Part shown: in pieces, positions 3,977-45,097 of the stretch
How positions within the stretch are numbered: position 1 is the stretch's first letter
Layout of the letters: the number at the start of each line of letters is the position of its first letter
Virus record (IMG/VR): IMGVR_UViG_3300035701_000073
Location: 1-45,097 of that record
Strand: one strand, 5' to 3'
DNA: 45,097 nucleotides
Source: a virus
Notes under the pieces: generated by a model
Seen by the model: the letters and a program-made list of their open reading frames with translations, nothing else
Databases searched by the model: none
What the model was told of the DNA's origin: nothing
Program-made: the position numbers and the translations under genes

Positions 3977-3994
3977 GTTATGCTCCTTAAAGTA

Positions 3995-4021
3995 GGAGGG
4001 GGTTAGTTACTTCCCCCCTCT
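3995..4021 (-). terminator. Intercistronic hairpin 1 (shared loop)
   Basis: On the leftward transcript the arms 4014-4020 and 3996-4002 form a 7-bp G/C-rich stem around the 11-base loop GAAGTAACTAA. It sits just after the 186-aa gene. The run that follows is only weakly U-rich, so it may be a partial terminator, an mRNA-stabilising end or a processing site. A second hairpin at 4616-4640 has the same loop with a different stem. Confidence 0.6.
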
Positions 4022-4585: not shown

Positions 4586-4615
4586 GTTGCACTCCTATAT
4601 GTGGGAGGTTTGTAT

Positions 4616-4640
4616 GGAGTGGTTAGTTACTTCCCACTCC
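4616..4640 (-). terminator. Intercistronic hairpin 2 (shared loop)
   Basis: On the leftward transcript GGAGTGG (4634-4640) pairs with CCACTCC (4616-4622) around the loop GAAGTAACTAA, directly downstream of the major capsid stop codon. The loop and closing pairs equal those of the hairpin at 3995-4021 while the outer pairs differ but still pair. A U-tract is missing, so full termination is doubtful. Confidence 0.6.
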
Positions 4641-25044: not shown

Positions 25045-25056
25045 CTAATGTCGAGT

Positions 25057-25080
25057 AAGGGGGAGTAGCGGCTCCCCCTT
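25057..25080 (+). terminator. Hairpin before dpdA
   Basis: AAGGGGGAG (25057-25065) pairs with CTCCCCCTT (25072-25080) with a six-base loop. No T-tract follows, so it may be an attenuator or mRNA end rather than an efficient terminator. AAGGAG of the next gene lies seven bases after it. Confidence 0.55.
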
Positions 25081-25096
25081 CTCCCCAAGGAGTAAC

Positions 25097-25843
25097 ATGC
25101 TACTAAGTTTTGAGATACCTACGAAACATTTAGCCGAATTCATTCCTCTAGAGGACTTTCAGTTCGGCCTTGCTCATCTGTTCCTGAAGAAGGACTATCC
25201 AGGATGGGAAGAGTACCACAAGATGTATCAGGGCTGTCTACTGGACAACTCTATGTACGAGCTTGGATACCCCCTTCCTATCGAGGAGTTGATGAAAGCC
25301 GCTGCCTTAGCAAAGCCTAGGGCGATTATCGCTCCGGACTGGATGGATGAGTATGGCAAGACTATGGAGGCAGCTTACGAATTATGGAGGGCCAAACCCC
25401 AAGGCGCTTCTTGGTCTATCGGTGTGGTGGTTCAGGGAAAGAACTATGAAGAGCGTCGGAAGTTCTTTTTAATGGCGCGCACGAATAAGTGGAGTCCTAT
25501 CTGCTTCCCGTTTAGATCACCGAGAGAGGAGACTATGAAGTTACTCGCGCGGGCAGGAGAGTTCCACACAAACCACTGGTATCATATGTTAGGCCTTAGA
25601 GATTGGATAGAACTCTCTATTCCGTATCCTGGTCTTTGGTCTATTGATACCAGTAAACCGTTTAAGGGCTATAAGATTACAGAGCAGCCTTGTAGAGGTC
25701 AAGGTGGTATCAAGATGCATGATGAGATGTCCTTTACTGCTAGACGAGTAGCAGGGTGGAATATCGCGTTTATGCGGCAACTAGCACAGTATGGAGAACG
25801 TCAACGATTCTATAATATGAAAGGACACAAGTCGTGCCGATAG
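25097..25843 (+). CDS. dpdA: DpdA-like DNA 7-deazaguanine transglycosylase
   Basis: A 248-aa protein related to tRNA-guanine transglycosylases. LLDNSMYELG (D50, E55), IIAPDWMDE (D81), IGVVVQGKNYEE (~108-119), HMLGL (~163-167) and SIDTS (~182-186) follow the order of the DpdA/TGT TIM barrel. The zinc motif of tRNA enzymes is absent, as expected for the smaller phage type. Together with folE, queD, queE and queC in this genome it should exchange G in DNA for preQ0. AAGGAG lies directly before the ATG. Residues 37-48 are encoded by the 37-bp repeat also found before queD. Confidence 0.85.
   Translation: MLLSFEIPTKHLAEFIPLEDFQFGLAHLFLKKDYPGWEEYHKMYQGCLLDNSMYELGYPLPIEELMKAAALAKPRAIIAPDWMDEYGKTMEAAYELWRAKPQGASWSIGVVVQGKNYEERRKFFLMARTNKWSPICFPFRSPREETMKLLARAGEFHTNHWYHMLGLRDWIELSIPYPGLWSIDTSKPFKGYKITEQPCRGQGGIKMHDEMSFTARRVAGWNIAFMRQLAQYGERQRFYNMKGHKSCR
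25205..25241 (+). repeat. 37-bp exact direct repeat, copy in dpdA
   Basis: This stretch encodes WEEYHKMYQGCL of DpdA and recurs without change at 25879-25915, in the same coding sense. Confidence 0.9.
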
Positions 25844-25944
25844 GGGGTTGGTGGTTAGCCAACAGATATCGAGAAGACTGGGAAGAGTACCACAAGATGT
25901 ATCAGGGCTGTCTACCTGATGAAAATTACGAGAAAGGAAAACAC
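25834..25944 (+). pseudogene. dpdA N-terminal fragment fused ahead of queD
   Basis: In frame with queD from a GTG at 25834, this 37-codon stretch reads (V)PIGGWWLANRYREDWEEYHK and MYQGCLPDENYEKG. It aligns with DpdA residues ~25-57 (LAHLFLKKDYPGWEEYHK, MYQGCLLDNSMYELG), with a 37-bp identical core. It looks like the remains of a partial dpdA duplication. It may still be translated as an N-terminal extension of QueD, though the ATG at 25945 has its own ribosome site. Confidence 0.6.
25879..25915 (+). repeat. 37-bp exact direct repeat, copy before queD
   Basis: Identical to 25205-25241, 674 bp downstream. Unequal recombination between the copies would delete most of dpdA. Confidence 0.9.
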
Positions 25945-26355
25945 ATGAACGGTGAACAAGCTAAAACACATTATGTCGCCCCGGGTCAACCCCACGTATG
26001 GGTATGGAAGCGTTGCTCATTTGACGCAGCACACCAACTGCCGCTTTACCAAGGAGCCTGCTCCCGTGTCCACGGTCATACGTACTTCGTCGAGCTCGGA
26101 GTTCTATGTAGTATCGATCCAGCTACGGGAATGGGTCTGGACCTTAAGGAGTTAGGCGAGTTTCTCAAGTCAAACGTTGAGGCGCTCTTCGATCACCAGT
26201 TCATTAATGATCGAATTCCTGGACAACATTCAACCGCCGAGGGTATCGCTCGCTATATCTTAGAGGTAGCGGATCGTTACTTCAACAAGTCATTCGTGAA
26301 AGTGAGAGTATATGAAACTCCAGACAGTTGGGTGGAAATGGATTCTTCGCGGTAA
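25945..26355 (+). CDS. queD: 6-carboxytetrahydropterin synthase QueD
   Basis: A 136-aa enzyme with AAAGGAAAACAC ahead of the ATG. FDAAHQLPLYQGACSRVHGH holds the zinc histidines and the catalytic cysteine; MGLDLKELGEFLK, LFDHQFIND and STAEGIARYI follow in the usual order, and VRVYETPDSW is the closing strand. It converts dihydroneopterin triphosphate to the substrate of QueE. A longer in-frame start (25834) would add the dpdA-like fragment. Confidence 0.9.
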   Translation: MNGEQAKTHYVAPGQPHVWVWKRCSFDAAHQLPLYQGACSRVHGHTYFVELGVLCSIDPATGMGLDLKELGEFLKSNVEALFDHQFINDRIPGQHSTAEGIARYILEVADRYFNKSFVKVRVYETPDSWVEMDSSR

Positions 26356-29041: not shown

Positions 29042-32000
29042 TTACTTTTCGTAGGGTCTAAATCCTGTAATAGCTTTTAGAGCGGTTGGAAGATCTTCCG
29101 CGTTAATAGCTCGATTAATATCACGACCAGCCATATAGAAGGGAATCAAGTTGGTAACTTGGTTAAGTAGATCATGCATCCCTAATTCGTGCCTAAATCC
29201 TTTACCAGCGGCGTAGTAGGCGGATGCGAACAAGCTCGCACCAGGGCCTCCCATATAGGAGAAAGGACCCATCCATAACCATGAGCCCGCGTTAACACCG
29301 AGAACCTTCTTAGTGGCTTGGTCAAGGGCCGCGTTAACCATAACCATTCGGGTGATGAATTGCATATTAGCGATCTTGTCACCAGACATAGCTCCGCGCT
29401 TAGCAAAGCGCCAGAAGCTTAATGGCCAAGTACCAAACTGTCCGAAGAAGCGACCCATCTTGGAGTTAAAGAGTTCAGGAGTATTGCCCGCACTATACAT
29501 CCATTGTGTATCTTCCGAAAGGTTCTGGGCAAACCGCTTAGAGGCCAGATCAAGATTCTTAGCGTTAAGAGTGTCCATGATCTCGGCTTGAGAGGCTTTC
29601 TCCATATAGATCATCCCTGTCCGCCGCATAAGAGTTTGCGCAGACATATTACCTAGTAAGTACTGGGAACCAAAATCTTTCATTGCAAGGTAGCCGGTCG
29701 TAACGGAGATACGACGATTAGTGAGCTCAGACCAGTTAAAGGGCTTCATCGCGGCGTTATAGATGCGTCTAAGCTTGGTAGCGGCTATTTTGGGGACAGT
29801 AGATGTCTCTACCTGATTTTCGAGTAGCTGTTCTGTGCTAGCTCCTTGGAGCTTATCGACGCCTAACTCTTTGAATAGAACGTCAAGTTCGGGTATCCTC
29901 TTGACACCCGATACATGTGCCCAGTAGACCTGCTGGCCGCGTGCGAAGTTCTCGGGGCCCACATAGGGTAGCAGAGTCATAGTGGGTTGTGCAAGATTAC
30001 GGAGAACCATTCCGATGCGTCCGGGCATTGTAGCGGTATAAGTAAGGAGAAGATAGTTAGGTAAGATCTTACCGAACAATTCTTTATCAACGTTGATTCC
30101 TGCTCCCTGATATACGGTCTCAAGAAATGTTTGTGCAGCTGCATGATCTGTACTAACACCCCAAGAGACACGAGCTCGGTAGTTTATCAGTTTGCCAATG
30201 AGCTCTTGTTTGATAGAGCGAGGCATTACCTCGTTTTCCATCTCCTTCATAGTCTTTAGATACTCAGCCTTCATCTCTGCTGCTCTAGGGCCACGAGCAT
30301 CAACGTATCTACCTTTTAGGGATTGGTAGGCGTCGTCAAGGGATAGATCTTCAGGATAATCATTTATCTTTTTGACTGTCTCGTCGATCTTGTCGAAAGC
30401 AGGGAGCATAGACATTCGTGCACGAGCGGAGATAGCGTTAGGAATCATCTCGATAAAGTCTGTAGGATTTCCTTTAAGCCCGCCCTTCTCACGCCAAGTC
30501 TTCATGGTTGTAGTTTCGGTGGACTCGTTGTTTCCTAGTTTAGAGTCTCTGTATGAAGGAAGATGTACGGTAAGAAACTCGCGCCAGTATTTACCAAAAG
30601 CCTTCTCTAGAAGGGATTGAACGTGAGGAGCGAGATCGATATCTTCCTTACGCATATTGTAGGTGTTGCGTACTTTAAGTTTGCCTTCCCAGTCTTTTGG
30701 GTCTACTTCTAAGTAGGCACGAATAGCGTCTTGGTTACGGGTCTTTAGAATCTTGAGAAGAGCAGCTTCCTTAGGAGCTAGTTCCTTTGCCCAACTACGA
30801 GTTGAGATAGCGTAGTTTTCAACCATACGCCATAAGTCGTAGAAACGAAGGCCATACTTTTGTCCGATCTTACCTTCTTGTAGAACAGAGAAGACATCCT
30901 TGGTGGGAATAAGTAGACCTGGAGGACCTATCTCCGATCGTTTCTGATATGCAGTCTTAACACGGCCTACCGTGTTACGAATAAAGCCGGGAGCCTCTTC
31001 TAGTGAGGGAGCACCCATGTGCATAATCGTACCACGACCGCGCTCAGGCTTCTTAAGTTCATTCTGGAGGAACTCACGAATGAACTGCATCTCGTCAATC
31101 TCGTCCGTTGGGAATTTGCCCTCAGTAGCTGCGCGAGCGTTGACTTGTAGCTTCAAAGCCTCTTCCGCCTTTGCTTCCGCCTCAGTGAATGGACGTTCAC
31201 GTTCACGCTGCTGGCGAGTCAGTTCCTCGATAGAGGCTTTGAACTCTGCTTGCGAAGGCTTTGAAGGGTATACCTTTTTGAAGGTTCTAGTTACCTTTCC
31301 TTCCTTTACATCTACTTCGGGAGTCCAGTAGGGAGCTTCTCCAACAGGCTTTCCCTGTTCTTGGAGTAGCTGCTTCATAAGTTCTACTTCACGTAAATAG
31401 TCAAGAACAAACTTCTCATGCCTTTCTGCATATTCTTGGTGTATTCCGTTAAGAAGCTCTTTCTGCTTTTCTTTAGATAATGGAGTTCCTGCCTCTTTGA
31501 ACTCTTTTACATAAGTCTTAAAGTCCTTCTCTATTTCGGCGATAACCTCATCAAGCATTTTATCAGCAAATGTAGCTGCCTCTTCTATAGGGACGGTTTT
31601 TCCTATCTCTCTAGCTTCTCGTAACATGTGCATAGCTTGTTCAAAAGGCATAGGAGTTTCTTCGAGAAAGTGTTGTTTCCACCGCTCTAAAGACTCACGC
31701 GCCTCTTGTGAACGGGGAGTAGGTACTCGATCCTCTCGTATAGCTTGAAAGAACTCTTTATCAGTATAGAGAAGGTCGTTAGGAGATAGATTTGATGCTT
31801 TCTTACGTTCTTGTATGGGCTTTTTGCCGAAGGGGTTTTCAACCGCACTCATGCCAAGAGTGGTGCTACCTCGTTTGATGCGGGAGGCGATGTAGGCGGC
31901 CATACCTTCACGCCAGTCACGTCGCTGTTCGATAGTAGCATGAGGTGGAAGAGGTACTTTAGTCTCGTATTCAGCCTTGTACCTCATGACTACGTTAGAT

Positions 32001-35000
32001 AGAGCAGGACTAGATGTACGCTTAACAACGCGAAGTTCAGCAGGTATATCTGCAGGAAGGGTTGCTCGTGAACCAAGCTCAGAGACACTTACTCTACCAG
32101 TACGGTCGTTAATTGCATAGCGGATTTCGTGGGGTAAGATAGATCCGCGATAGGGTTGAATTTCTCCCGTCTTAGTGTTTAAGACACGAGAGTAGATACC
32201 TTTCTGACGATATATAATATCAGCACTTAGAACATCCTTAGGAAGCGATTCCTCAGGGAAGGAAGGTAGAGAATCTGTAGGCGTATCACGCTCACTGGTT
32301 GGATCATAGGATTCAGGATTAGGTCTTCCAGGAAATCCAGGACAAGCCTCTTCTACTTCCCTTGGTTGGGTAACAGCTCTCTGTGCCTCTTCAGGAGTTA
32401 CAAGACGTGTCTCACGAGTAGAGGGATCAAAGACCTGGAGAGAACCGTCGGGAAAGAAGACCTCGACCTTCCATCCTGTGTTACTGTAAAGGACGGCTTG
32501 GATCTCTGTAGGAGTAAGAGGACGTTGTGGTCCTTTGGATTGTGCTTTATTACGCTCTACGACATCGAACTTACCGTCCTTGGTATGAACGATCATGTAG
32601 GTACCGCCGCGAGTCTCAAGAATGAGTTGCCCGTTAGAAGTGAAGTTACCAGGACCAGAGAAGTTCTGTAGTTCTTGGAAAGAGACTTTAACGAAGTTAC
32701 GGGAGCCCGGAACTGTCTCTACTTCGATGTCATTAGTCTCGCGGTTGTAACGTCCGTTAAGGCCCGTGCGAAGGAGTTCGGCGGATACGGCGAGAGGATT
32801 AGCTTCAGTCTCACCACGAGTCATTCCTTCATAGGGACGTCCGCCCATACTGTCAAGGACACGAGAGTCGTCCTCAAGGGTTTTGAAGTCGAGACCGCGA
32901 GCTTGTTCGGGAGGAAATTCTTCAGTGGCTGATCGAGCTGCTACTTTCTCAGCCACGCCCGCGATACGTTGAGAGATGTTAACGTCGGACAGCGGGGGAC
33001 CTTCACCAAGAGCAGCAAGCTCTTCCATAACACGATCGTAGGCATCTATCTTGGTGTAGCCCTCAGCTAGAAGGGAGTCGTATCGAGATGTGAAGTGCTT
33101 TGCCAATATAGCTGGGCGATCAGCAGCTCCTTGTCCGGGTTGAAGTTCTGGTTTGAATTGTCCTGTAGCTATAAGTGCGGGAGGCTCTTTTCCTTCCGGT
33201 ACTTGTGCAAGAACACTTGCCCGAGCTTGTGCTTCGGTAAGTACAGGACCACCAAGATGTTTAGCGTGCTCAGCGATGATTAGTTTGGCGTTAACATCAC
33301 TTAACTCTGCTGCCTGCTTGCTCTTGGCTTCTGCTACGGAGTTAAGATGTTTAGGATAGACTTGTAACCGTCCGGTAACTTGCGGAGGCATCGTCCCGTT
33401 TAGGATCATACGTTTAAGATCGGCCTTAGCTCTATCCGATAAGCCAGTAGCGTGATCGATCTCCGTGAGTAAGAACTGAGCATCACGCAAGTTGTCTTGC
33501 ATTTCTGGGTCTTGAGGAACCGCTCCGGCTTTAGTTACTTGAGTGTTACGTTGTCCTAGGAGAGATACTTTAGGACGCCCAAGCCCGTCTATGTTAGTAG
33601 GTTCCCCAAGGTGCTTTCGCTCTAAAGCTATTTGGATAATTTGTCCAATAGAGCGAGAGTCGACTCCACGCATACTCTCGAGAACTTTTTCTGTAAAAGC
33701 CCGACCAGGTCCTACCGTTAGTTCACGAAGGTATTCAGCACGTTCACTAACACCATTAGGCCCAGGCTCAGCGGAGAGAGTTTTCCAACGAGCGATATCG
33801 ATAGTGGGAGGTTTAGCTTCCCATGCATCAAGAAATATACGGGAGAGAATACCGATCTTGGATCTAGCTTCTGGTGTACGAATTTCGGGAGTAGTAGTAA
33901 CTAGAGCGTTACCTCCGAATACAAGTTCTGGGTAAGAACGTCCTACAGCCGTAGAAGCTAGATCAACGGTGTTGGCCCAATTCATATGTGCGTCAAGCTT
34001 CTCTGATTCAGGAACGTCTTTACCGAAAGAGGCACGAAGACGATCGGCCGCTATTTGGAGACGAGTAACTTGTGCAGTATTACCACGAGCCTCAAGTAGA
34101 GGAACTAGCTCAGTAGCTGCACGTTTCATTCGACGATCGGCTTCTTCCTGCTCGATCTTAGTATTACGTTCTATTGCCTGTTGCTCTTCAGCAGGAAGAA
34201 CTGGGGTAATACGATCTTTGTCGTGGGTCGCTTGAACACCTATTCCGCCCTCAGAGGGAGTAAATTGTCTTAATCCTTTGACTCGGTCAATAAGACGTGA
34301 TTCAAAGTTTCTCAGTTCTCCACGAGTCTTGGACTTCTCAGCCAGTAGATTGATATGAGATTCTTGATACGAGAGTCTCTTAATGTAGTTACTAAGTTTG
34401 TCGTTATAGGCCTTATTTTGAAAAGCTTCCCAGTTGTGGGGGGCTTCGAATGCATAGCGCATAACAGCAGTACTAGCTGCAGAGGTTAAAGCTCGGTCGA
34501 GTGCTGGAACCCCTGTGTAGGAAGGAGTGGGCCCTCTTCCAGTAGCCGCATCCCAGCCAGCTGCTAGAGCAATACCTTGCCATATCTTTCTAGGACCAAA
34601 AGCGAGGGTGCCCTGAATAGTTCCTTTAAGCGCTTCTCCTGGAGTAATGCGTCCAGCCAACAGTTGGTGCGCTTGGGGAATAGCCATAGTAACTGCCCCA
34701 CGAAGCATACCAGAAAGGAACGGGTGGGCTGCTACAACAGGAGGAGCAACTGTACCAGCTATCATATAAGGGATTAATCCTGCAGTAATATTTCCCATCG
34801 CAGCGCCTAAAGGATTAAGAGCAGGAGGAGGAGCATTGGGATCTACGTTAAGATCTGTTTTGGTACTACTTATTAGCATCTGCATAGGATCAGGAGTAGC
34901 ACCCATTTCACGGTAGGTCCCCTTAGGCCGCATGTCCTCTTGAGGAATTACTGGGGGACTAATAAATTCTGACGTCTGTTCAAATCCGGTAACAAAGGAT

Positions 35001-35392
35001 TGACCGAAGTTTTTTGAGGCAAAGGCCTTACGAAGAGATGTGGCTTCCTCTGAACTCTCTGCGTATGGCAGAATGTATTTGTTAAAGTGCTCCATCCGCC
35101 AACTATTCTGTTCTCCCATAGAGAGCTTCTTGAAGCGAGGATCTTGTTCCATACCGTAGTACCAGATCCAGGCGTTTTGTTTGGCAGAAGCTTCCGGTCC
35201 CTCTTTAGGTCCTTTACGAATGACGTCTGCATCTGAAGGATTAAGTTCTTTGACGTACCAGGGTATGGATTCTTTCGCAAGTTCCGCTTCTCGTTGTAGC
35301 TCGGCTAGAGTTTTTTGTTTAGGCTTCTGTACAGCGTTTTGAGCCAGAAGCTTACGACGCGTTTCGTCAACATCAACCATAAACTGTCCCAT
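29042..35392 (-). CDS. Giant internal virion or ejection-type protein (2116 aa)
   Basis: The largest gene, about 14% of the genome. The N-terminus is helical and charged (TRRKLLAQNAVQKPKQKTLA). Residues ~190-290 are Gly/Ala/hydrophobic (GAAMGNITAGLIPYMIAGTV, GRITPGEALKGTIQGTLAF). The centre is long, charged and coiled (ERHEKFVLDYLREVELMKQL). The C-terminal third has NYLLLTYTATMPGRIGMVLR then NLAQ, and ends with hydrophobic segments (GSWLWMGPFSYMGGPGASLF) and FRPYEK. In short-tailed phages a giant protein next to gp14-like genes is ejected to form a DNA conduit. No catalytic motif was recognised, so the role is inferred from size and position. Confidence 0.7.
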   Translation of the reverse strand: MGQFMVDVDETRRKLLAQNAVQKPKQKTLAELQREAELAKESIPWYVKELNPSDADVIRKGPKEGPEASAKQNAWIWYYGMEQDPRFKKLSMGEQNSWRMEHFNKYILPYAESSEEATSLRKAFASKNFGQSFVTGFEQTSEFISPPVIPQEDMRPKGTYREMGATPDPMQMLISSTKTDLNVDPNAPPPALNPLGAAMGNITAGLIPYMIAGTVAPPVVAAHPFLSGMLRGAVTMAIPQAHQLLAGRITPGEALKGTIQGTLAFGPRKIWQGIALAAGWDAATGRGPTPSYTGVPALDRALTSAASTAVMRYAFEAPHNWEAFQNKAYNDKLSNYIKRLSYQESHINLLAEKSKTRGELRNFESRLIDRVKGLRQFTPSEGGIGVQATHDKDRITPVLPAEEQQAIERNTKIEQEEADRRMKRAATELVPLLEARGNTAQVTRLQIAADRLRASFGKDVPESEKLDAHMNWANTVDLASTAVGRSYPELVFGGNALVTTTPEIRTPEARSKIGILSRIFLDAWEAKPPTIDIARWKTLSAEPGPNGVSERAEYLRELTVGPGRAFTEKVLESMRGVDSRSIGQIIQIALERKHLGEPTNIDGLGRPKVSLLGQRNTQVTKAGAVPQDPEMQDNLRDAQFLLTEIDHATGLSDRAKADLKRMILNGTMPPQVTGRLQVYPKHLNSVAEAKSKQAAELSDVNAKLIIAEHAKHLGGPVLTEAQARASVLAQVPEGKEPPALIATGQFKPELQPGQGAADRPAILAKHFTSRYDSLLAEGYTKIDAYDRVMEELAALGEGPPLSDVNISQRIAGVAEKVAARSATEEFPPEQARGLDFKTLEDDSRVLDSMGGRPYEGMTRGETEANPLAVSAELLRTGLNGRYNRETNDIEVETVPGSRNFVKVSFQELQNFSGPGNFTSNGQLILETRGGTYMIVHTKDGKFDVVERNKAQSKGPQRPLTPTEIQAVLYSNTGWKVEVFFPDGSLQVFDPSTRETRLVTPEEAQRAVTQPREVEEACPGFPGRPNPESYDPTSERDTPTDSLPSFPEESLPKDVLSADIIYRQKGIYSRVLNTKTGEIQPYRGSILPHEIRYAINDRTGRVSVSELGSRATLPADIPAELRVVKRTSSPALSNVVMRYKAEYETKVPLPPHATIEQRRDWREGMAAYIASRIKRGSTTLGMSAVENPFGKKPIQERKKASNLSPNDLLYTDKEFFQAIREDRVPTPRSQEARESLERWKQHFLEETPMPFEQAMHMLREAREIGKTVPIEEAATFADKMLDEVIAEIEKDFKTYVKEFKEAGTPLSKEKQKELLNGIHQEYAERHEKFVLDYLREVELMKQLLQEQGKPVGEAPYWTPEVDVKEGKVTRTFKKVYPSKPSQAEFKASIEELTRQQRERERPFTEAEAKAEEALKLQVNARAATEGKFPTDEIDEMQFIREFLQNELKKPERGRGTIMHMGAPSLEEAPGFIRNTVGRVKTAYQKRSEIGPPGLLIPTKDVFSVLQEGKIGQKYGLRFYDLWRMVENYAISTRSWAKELAPKEAALLKILKTRNQDAIRAYLEVDPKDWEGKLKVRNTYNMRKEDIDLAPHVQSLLEKAFGKYWREFLTVHLPSYRDSKLGNNESTETTTMKTWREKGGLKGNPTDFIEMIPNAISARARMSMLPAFDKIDETVKKINDYPEDLSLDDAYQSLKGRYVDARGPRAAEMKAEYLKTMKEMENEVMPRSIKQELIGKLINYRARVSWGVSTDHAAAQTFLETVYQGAGINVDKELFGKILPNYLLLTYTATMPGRIGMVLRNLAQPTMTLLPYVGPENFARGQQVYWAHVSGVKRIPELDVLFKELGVDKLQGASTEQLLENQVETSTVPKIAATKLRRIYNAAMKPFNWSELTNRRISVTTGYLAMKDFGSQYLLGNMSAQTLMRRTGMIYMEKASQAEIMDTLNAKNLDLASKRFAQNLSEDTQWMYSAGNTPELFNSKMGRFFGQFGTWPLSFWRFAKRGAMSGDKIANMQFITRMVMVNAALDQATKKVLGVNAGSWLWMGPFSYMGGPGASLFASAYYAAGKGFRHELGMHDLLNQVTNLIPFYMAGRDINRAINAEDLPTALKAITGFRPYEK

Positions 35393-44086: not shown

Positions 44087-45097
44087 TCATGAAGATTTCC
44101 ATACACCAGAGACTTTAACTGAGAGAGCACAACCGACCCAAACACCCCCAACTTTAGTTTCGATACCAAGTCCAGAGTCCCCAATTACAACAAGAGCTCG
44201 AATAGCCAGTGTGTCAGATCCAGAACCCGAGTCTGAGATCTCCTTGAGTGGGATACTCGTAGATACAAAGATAGTATCATCTCCGGCTCCGACATCGGTA
44301 ATACCTAGTCTCGCTAGTATCGTAGTAATAACATCGACGCCCATTCCAGACTCTATAATAGATATCTTTCGAAGTATATCTGTGATAGTATCAGAGCCGG
44401 CGCCAGATTCTGCGATAAGTATCTTTCGGAGAATATTGGTAATAAGATCTATACCTGCTCCTGTATCTGTAAGAAATATCTTTCGAAGGATACTAGTAAC
44501 AAGATCTGTACCCGCACCAGACTCTATAATAAATATCTTTCGAAGGATATTAGTAACAGTGTCTATACCGGCTCCTACATCCGTAAGACTAACGCTAGCT
44601 AGAATTTTTGTAATAACATCAACACCTGAACCAGAGTCAGGAATAGAAGCTAGTTTCTTACGAAGTGCTAGAAGATCAGAGCCTGAACCGGTATCTAGAA
44701 TAGGAGCTAGTTTCTCTCGAATTGTAGGAACATCAGAGCTAGCTATTGATATGTCTGAAATAGGTACTCTAGCAGTAATTGTTGGGATAGCATCAGAACC
44801 AGAGCCAGAATCATCGATAGTTTTAGGAGTAATGCCTCCATAAACACTAACGGCATCTAGTCCAGCTCCTATGTCTACTAGAGGTACTCCAGCCTTCACT
44901 AGAGGAGTATCTACACTAGTACCGGAGTCAGGTAGACGAATACCCTTACGTAAGGTATCTGCTCCTGCTCCAGAATCTGCTTCATGTATACCTTTACGTA
45001 AAGCATCTGCTCCAGAACCCGTCTCTGGTATTAAAGTTCCTTTACGTAAAGTATCCGCTCCCGAGCCTACATCTGATAGGCGCATACCTTTACGTAA
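44087..45097 (-). CDS. Tandem-repeat tail/fibre protein, C-terminal part (continues at 1304)
   Basis: This is the downstream part of the gene that starts at 1304 on the other side of the join; translation enters as LRKGMRLSDVGSGAD and ends GVWKSS. It is almost wholly repeats, each with (D/E)-x-G-x-G-x-D, in two lengths: about 15 residues (RLSDVGSGADTLRKG) and about 19 (IFLTDTGAGIDLITNILRK). Some 20 repeats are present across the join. The glycine-Asp pattern recalls Ca-binding RTX nonapeptides, but the period is longer. The final VGGVWVGCALSVKVSGVWK is a common phage structural ending. A rod-like fibre or spike stalk is the most likely role. Confidence 0.75.
   Translation of the reverse strand, partial: LRKGMRLSDVGSGADTLRKGTLIPETGSGADALRKGIHEADSGAGADTLRKGIRLPDSGTSVDTPLVKAGVPLVDIGAGLDAVSVYGGITPKTIDDSGSGSDAIPTITARVPISDISIASSDVPTIREKLAPILDTGSGSDLLALRKKLASIPDSGSGVDVITKILASVSLTDVGAGIDTVTNILRKIFIIESGAGTDLVTSILRKIFLTDTGAGIDLITNILRKILIAESGAGSDTITDILRKISIIESGMGVDVITTILARLGITDVGAGDDTIFVSTSIPLKEISDSGSGSDTLAIRALVVIGDSGLGIETKVGGVWVGCALSVKVSGVWKSS
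45075..45097. repeat. Terminal overlap, right copy (identical to 1-23)
   Basis: Matches the first 23 bases exactly. It marks where the linear sequence was cut from a circular map; the repeat gene spans the join in frame. Confidence 0.85.

Follow-up and report, generated by a model that had tools for sequence, protein, structure and literature searches.

A short copy of dpdA coding DNA in the variable gap before queD of a phage genome: probably a recent partial duplication

A viral record of 45,097 bp from IMG/VR (IMGVR_UViG_3300035701_000073), analyzed over its whole length and referred to here as the window, carries a 37-bp piece of the dpdA gene a second time, immediately ahead of queD, which raises the question of how this copy arose and whether it forms part of QueD. 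Positions 25205-25241 and 25879-25915 are identical at 37 of 37 bp on the same strand (TGGGAAGAGTACCACAAGATGTATCAGGGCTGTCTAC), with 674 bp from start to start, and both copies, each read in the frame of its own ORF, translate to WEEYHKMYQGCL, a coincidence already recorded in the preliminary description and borne out by the repeat scan and the in-frame translation. The identity is far beyond chance, with only these two places in the window matching the repeat even when up to three mismatches are allowed, and dinucleotide shuffles yielding no match. It is also the longest exact repeat of the window, followed by a 23-bp terminal repeat and then by a 19-bp repeat. Among the other fetched dpdA-bearing loci (605 kb), dispersed exact repeats of at least 22 bp, counted irrespective of gene context, occur only in L038 and L059, and the repeat is both real in the sequence and unusual. 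All 12 codons agree between the copies (chance ~4e-4 if only the peptide had been retained), and therefore the DNA itself was copied. Searches for the exact 37-mer in IMG/VR, for similar DNA in phages, and for copies elsewhere in the window of the rest of the dpdA-queD spacer returned none.

The upstream gene (25097-25843, plus strand) encodes a predicted DNA-guanine transglycosylase, as judged by homology and fold, which would insert 7-deazaguanine into DNA. The name dpdA is supported because (i) BLASTP relates the ORF to gp056 of Campylobacter phage CP220 (E=5e-11), which in turn shares 44% identity with an annotated DNA guanine transglycosylase of a Flavobacterium phage; (ii) the LDN, PD, H-LG, and DT motifs are kept across a 30-sequence alignment (LDNS/PD/H-LG/DTS in the window product), with D50 in LDN(S/G) and D184 in DT invariant in all 30; and (iii) the AlphaFold model (pLDDT 92) finds in Foldseek both TGT (E=1.7e-5) and the solved DpdA structure 7ui4 (E=6.6e-5, probability 1.00). 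D50 and D184 are taken here as the counterparts of TGT D102 and D280, and the CP220-type short DpdA presumably corresponds to the DpdA3 subfamily of a 2023 paper. The TGT-like barrel fold, the conserved Asp motifs, and the link to preQ0 synthesis genes are those of the DpdA/TGT superfamily. The window enzyme thus resembles phage DpdA enzymes (Hutinet et al., 2019; PMC6884629) and CP220-type relatives in its fold, in its Asp motifs, and in being encoded with FolE, QueD, QueE, and QueC; unlike the former, it is a divergent short form of 248 aa, outside Pfam, NCBIfam, and PHROGs at E<0.01, the PHROG match being only weak. The short divergent family as a whole is missed by Pfam and NCBIfam, with CP220 gp056 still listed as hypothetical; its LDNS motif is matched by hundreds of IMG/VR stretches, with 509 encoding a relative, and the window member is predicted to adopt a TGT fold.

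The downstream gene, queD, read from ATG 25945 (25945-26355, plus strand, 136 aa), contains the full PTPS domain of the QueD/6-carboxytetrahydropterin synthase family (PF01242, E=3e-28). The residues H67, C76, H80, H82, D120, H121, and E161, which we take to be the ligand (Zn) and active-site residues, are invariant in the window protein and in those of four related phages, as expected for the family. QueC, QueE, and a GTP cyclohydrolase are also encoded in the window, so that, judged by gene content, the preQ0 pathway looks complete. The four related QueD proteins all begin right at the domain, whereas the window QueD is longer at its N-terminus, by ~19 residues if translated from the ATG, codon-like in frame, or by ~56 if translated from an upstream GTG at 25834.

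These four IMG/VR phages, L006 (record G001), L007 (G002), L088 (G003), and L092 (G004), constitute the comparison set and are ~50% identical to the window in DpdA and QueD (about 48-51% for DpdA); single-sequence protein scans returned no kin, whereas the family alignment did retrieve them, two scans of genome contigs returned no relatives, and no kin with a DpdA more than 60% identical, by which the timing and direction of the copying could be fixed more closely, was found. The first copy of the repeat (25205-25241, plus strand) comprises dpdA codons 37-48, just 5' of the invariant LDN(S/G) motif, and in the DpdA model it forms the helix 37-43 and the beginning of the strand 48-50 that carries D50. 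The kin hold homologous residues at this DpdA position (TYHTIMQGCLLDN, TYHSVMENCLLDN, and EYHKLMQGCLLDN, with a looser version in L088), and the first copy is therefore native. The second copy (25879-25915, plus strand) is absent from all four kin and from every other fetched locus. Comparison with kin thus identifies the dpdA copy as native and the queD-side copy as derived, which sustains the earlier claim of a dpdA fragment duplicated in frame before queD and gives it a direction, from dpdA to queD. The native copy is followed by LDNSMYELG and the derived copy by PDENYEKG, so that the latter lacks the LDNS motif.

The slot that received the copy measures 101 bp (25844-25944, plus strand). 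At the equivalent junction, L006 shows the dpdA stop, 13 bp, and queD; in L007 the dpdA stop and the queD start overlap; and in L092 a 56-codon ORF fills the gap, overlapping both genes. In G003 a homologous small ORF (49% identical to that of L092 over 37 aa) precedes queD, and dpdA lies at the opposite contig end, so that the two genes are adjacent there only if the contig ends join. The comparison of junctions suggested in the preliminary description thus reveals a gap that varies and a repeat missing from all four kin; aligned across these phages, the slot is simply variable. Because the two genes are near or adjacent in three kin that lack the repeat (a fourth, if the ends join), the neighborhood predates the repeat, which did not join dpdA to queD, contrary to the proposal that it is the scar of such an event. 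The proposal of a mosaic swap point for dpdA alleles finds no evidence, the window DpdA aligning with its kin over the full length. A target-site duplication of a mobile insert was rejected, as the DNA between the repeats is mostly the remaining dpdA, conserved and colinear with kin. The spacer bears no recognizable resemblance to the small ORF of the L092/G003 slot, of which it might have been a decayed form, and although the L006 QueD match seemed to continue upstream, the alignment there runs through stop codons and was discarded. A small conserved ORF ending PVSGxPxxRxDIKEx lies just before queD at L092:2840-3010 and in L091 (minus strand); two related phages carry this ORF, and the window and two others lack it. 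On the other side of the slot, the C-terminal tail of dpdA (25788-25843, plus strand) is ~15-17 codons longer than in kin and its codons are not coding-like, as if dpdA runs into added DNA; it contains an AAAGGA that could serve GTG 25834.

The explanation preferred here, with a probability of roughly 0.7, is a recent, lineage-specific partial duplication of dpdA into a variable slot, probably without a dedicated function. It builds on the observed exact repeat, its native copy, its absence in four kin, and the variable slot, and adds a mechanism, a recent date, and a lack of function that we infer. According to this explanation, 37 bp of dpdA coding DNA (codons 37-48) would have been copied ~670 bp downstream on the same strand, landing in the already variable dpdA-queD gap of this phage lineage, either in one short copying event, a polymerase template switch, or through a duplication plus deletion by illegitimate recombination. 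Short-homology recombination of this kind could involve the exonuclease and the Sak4-like annealing protein that are encoded in the window. The event would be recent because 37/37 identity bounds the divergence between copies to less than ~8% at 95%, with kin differing by ~50% in protein. The copy would now reside in the 5' leader of queD, or in a non-conserved N-terminal tail of QueD if GTG 25834 is used. Two observations count against this explanation: flank p values of ~0.01-0.07 in several tests hint at a larger copied or ancestral dpdA-like piece, and an incidental insertion need not leave an open, codon-like slot in the queD frame.

The first of these observations bears on a quite improbable alternative, in which the piece before queD would be what is left (~35 codons, L092-like) of an additional, diverged dpdA; gene conversion would afterwards have made its 37-bp core identical to the resident gene. 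The nucleotide flanks of the second copy show no similarity to the window's own dpdA, and the repeat edges are sharp; compared with kin, the flanks are slightly DpdA-like, best for L092 (54% over 26 residues), which they resemble slightly more than the window's own gene, and residues 5-29 of the putative extension match the N-terminus of the L092 DpdA at 54% (E=2.6e-4 in the L092 record). Several tests of the flanks were tried, and their whole range is given (p about 0.01-0.18 by test): protein flanks, as the best of five, reach p 0.04-0.06 upstream and 0.05-0.11 downstream; nucleotide flanks under two gap costs reach 0.005 or, under the stiffer cost, 0.18 upstream, and 0.13 or 0.07 downstream; and a five-phage DpdA profile with shuffled flanks gives p = 0.009-0.017. 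The low upstream value and the flank shuffles favor a remnant, but the score comes mostly from the repeat, the profile finds nothing once the repeat is masked, 4-7% of placements of the repeat among other window proteins equal the observed profile score, and no kin carries a second dpdA. Similarity beyond 37 bp is therefore marginal, and so is the earlier claim that it extends at protein level on each side. A single event copying more than 37 bp would, in turn, need later homogenization to leave a perfect core beside diverged flanks.

The open slot leads to another alternative, a rather unlikely one: translation of QueD would begin at GTG 25834, and the stretch copied from DpdA would be a genuine N-terminal extension in use, perhaps as a surface helix that brings QueD, or the compound it makes, together with DpdA. 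The putative extension (25834-25944, plus strand) comprises 37 open, codon-like codons. An AAGGA lies 8 nt upstream of GTG 25834, whose position overlaps the dpdA stop as in coupled phage genes, but the ribosome-binding site of ATG 25945 is equally good (AAGGA 6 nt upstream), and both starts are plausible on sequence grounds. With the repeat left aside, 20 codons of the slot have a coding score like that of real genes: 48% of true in-gene pieces reach their score, and 98-99.5% of same-strand off-frame open pieces from window genes and 95-99% of antisense open pieces fall below it; against mono-shuffled open frames, however, the score reaches only p=0.05, and 22% of the shuffles are open. The extension is absent from 4/4 kin QueD proteins, a similar peptide was not found in phages, plasmids, or IMG/VR, the same N-terminal element was not found on unrelated QueD proteins, and a Pfam search with the extension as a known domain gave no match even at E=10. 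AlphaFold assigns it a pLDDT of ~30, a weak test given the shallow alignment, and the corresponding part of DpdA, a helix and a strand next to the loop of the active site, does not stand out as a docking element. Given an open, codon-like slot and a plausible start at the GTG, QueD may have a DpdA-derived tail; that it is a newly born fusion, translated from GTG 25834 with a tail that is partly a copied DpdA helix, seems a long shot, and such a fusion, if true, would tie an enzyme that makes a precursor to the DNA transglycosylase that puts the end product to use. Similarly slim is the chance of an assembly artifact of the metagenomic contig or a two-strain chimera: the IMG/VR record is a single assembly, with no second independent contig carrying the junction, but a false join via a 37-bp overlap would not yield another copy flanked by open, codon-like sequence of its own, and synteny on either side agrees with kin. 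Hardly credible is a role of the repeat itself as a functional element of DNA or RNA, either as a cis-regulatory site or as a pair of recombination sites acting as an off switch, in which exchange would delete 674 bp and join the beginning of DpdA to QueD in the same frame. The copies are indeed direct and in frame, so that deletion would give an in-frame fusion, but deletion would be one-way, the repeat is absent in kin, the spacer RNA folds no better than shuffles (z -0.87), and promoter and terminator scans are at chance level.

The preferred reading, a partial duplication, leaves an ordinary event with a small question over the QueD start. It resembles the partial gene duplications that arise in phages through illegitimate recombination or template switching: the copy is short, exact, and made of coding DNA, sits in a neighboring intergenic slot, is lineage-specific, and has sharp edges. 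It differs from them in that the copy is only 37 bp long, shares the reading frame of queD, and is flanked by two genes of the same pathway, and in that its mechanism is a proposed one. The locus offers a small, clear example of phage genes acquiring copied pieces and extended ends where the slots between them vary; if the extension is translated and kept, it would also capture the birth of a protein tail from the sequence of a pathway partner.

Other features of the window comprise (i) a strong RNA hairpin at 25053-25083 (GAGTAAGGGGGAGTAGCGGCTCCCCCTTCTC; -22.4 kcal/mol, z -2.8), just 5' of the dpdA ribosome site, possibly a terminator or an mRNA-stability element; (ii) contig ends identical over 23 bp (1-23 and 45075-45097) within a degenerate repeat region, which could mean either a circular record or one that broke off in a repeat; (iii) a 2116-aa ORF (29042-35392, minus strand) with no Pfam match; and (iv) GGTTAGTTACTTCCC at 3992-4015 and 4612-4635, between minus-strand genes, its only two copies in the window and possibly a shared regulatory site.
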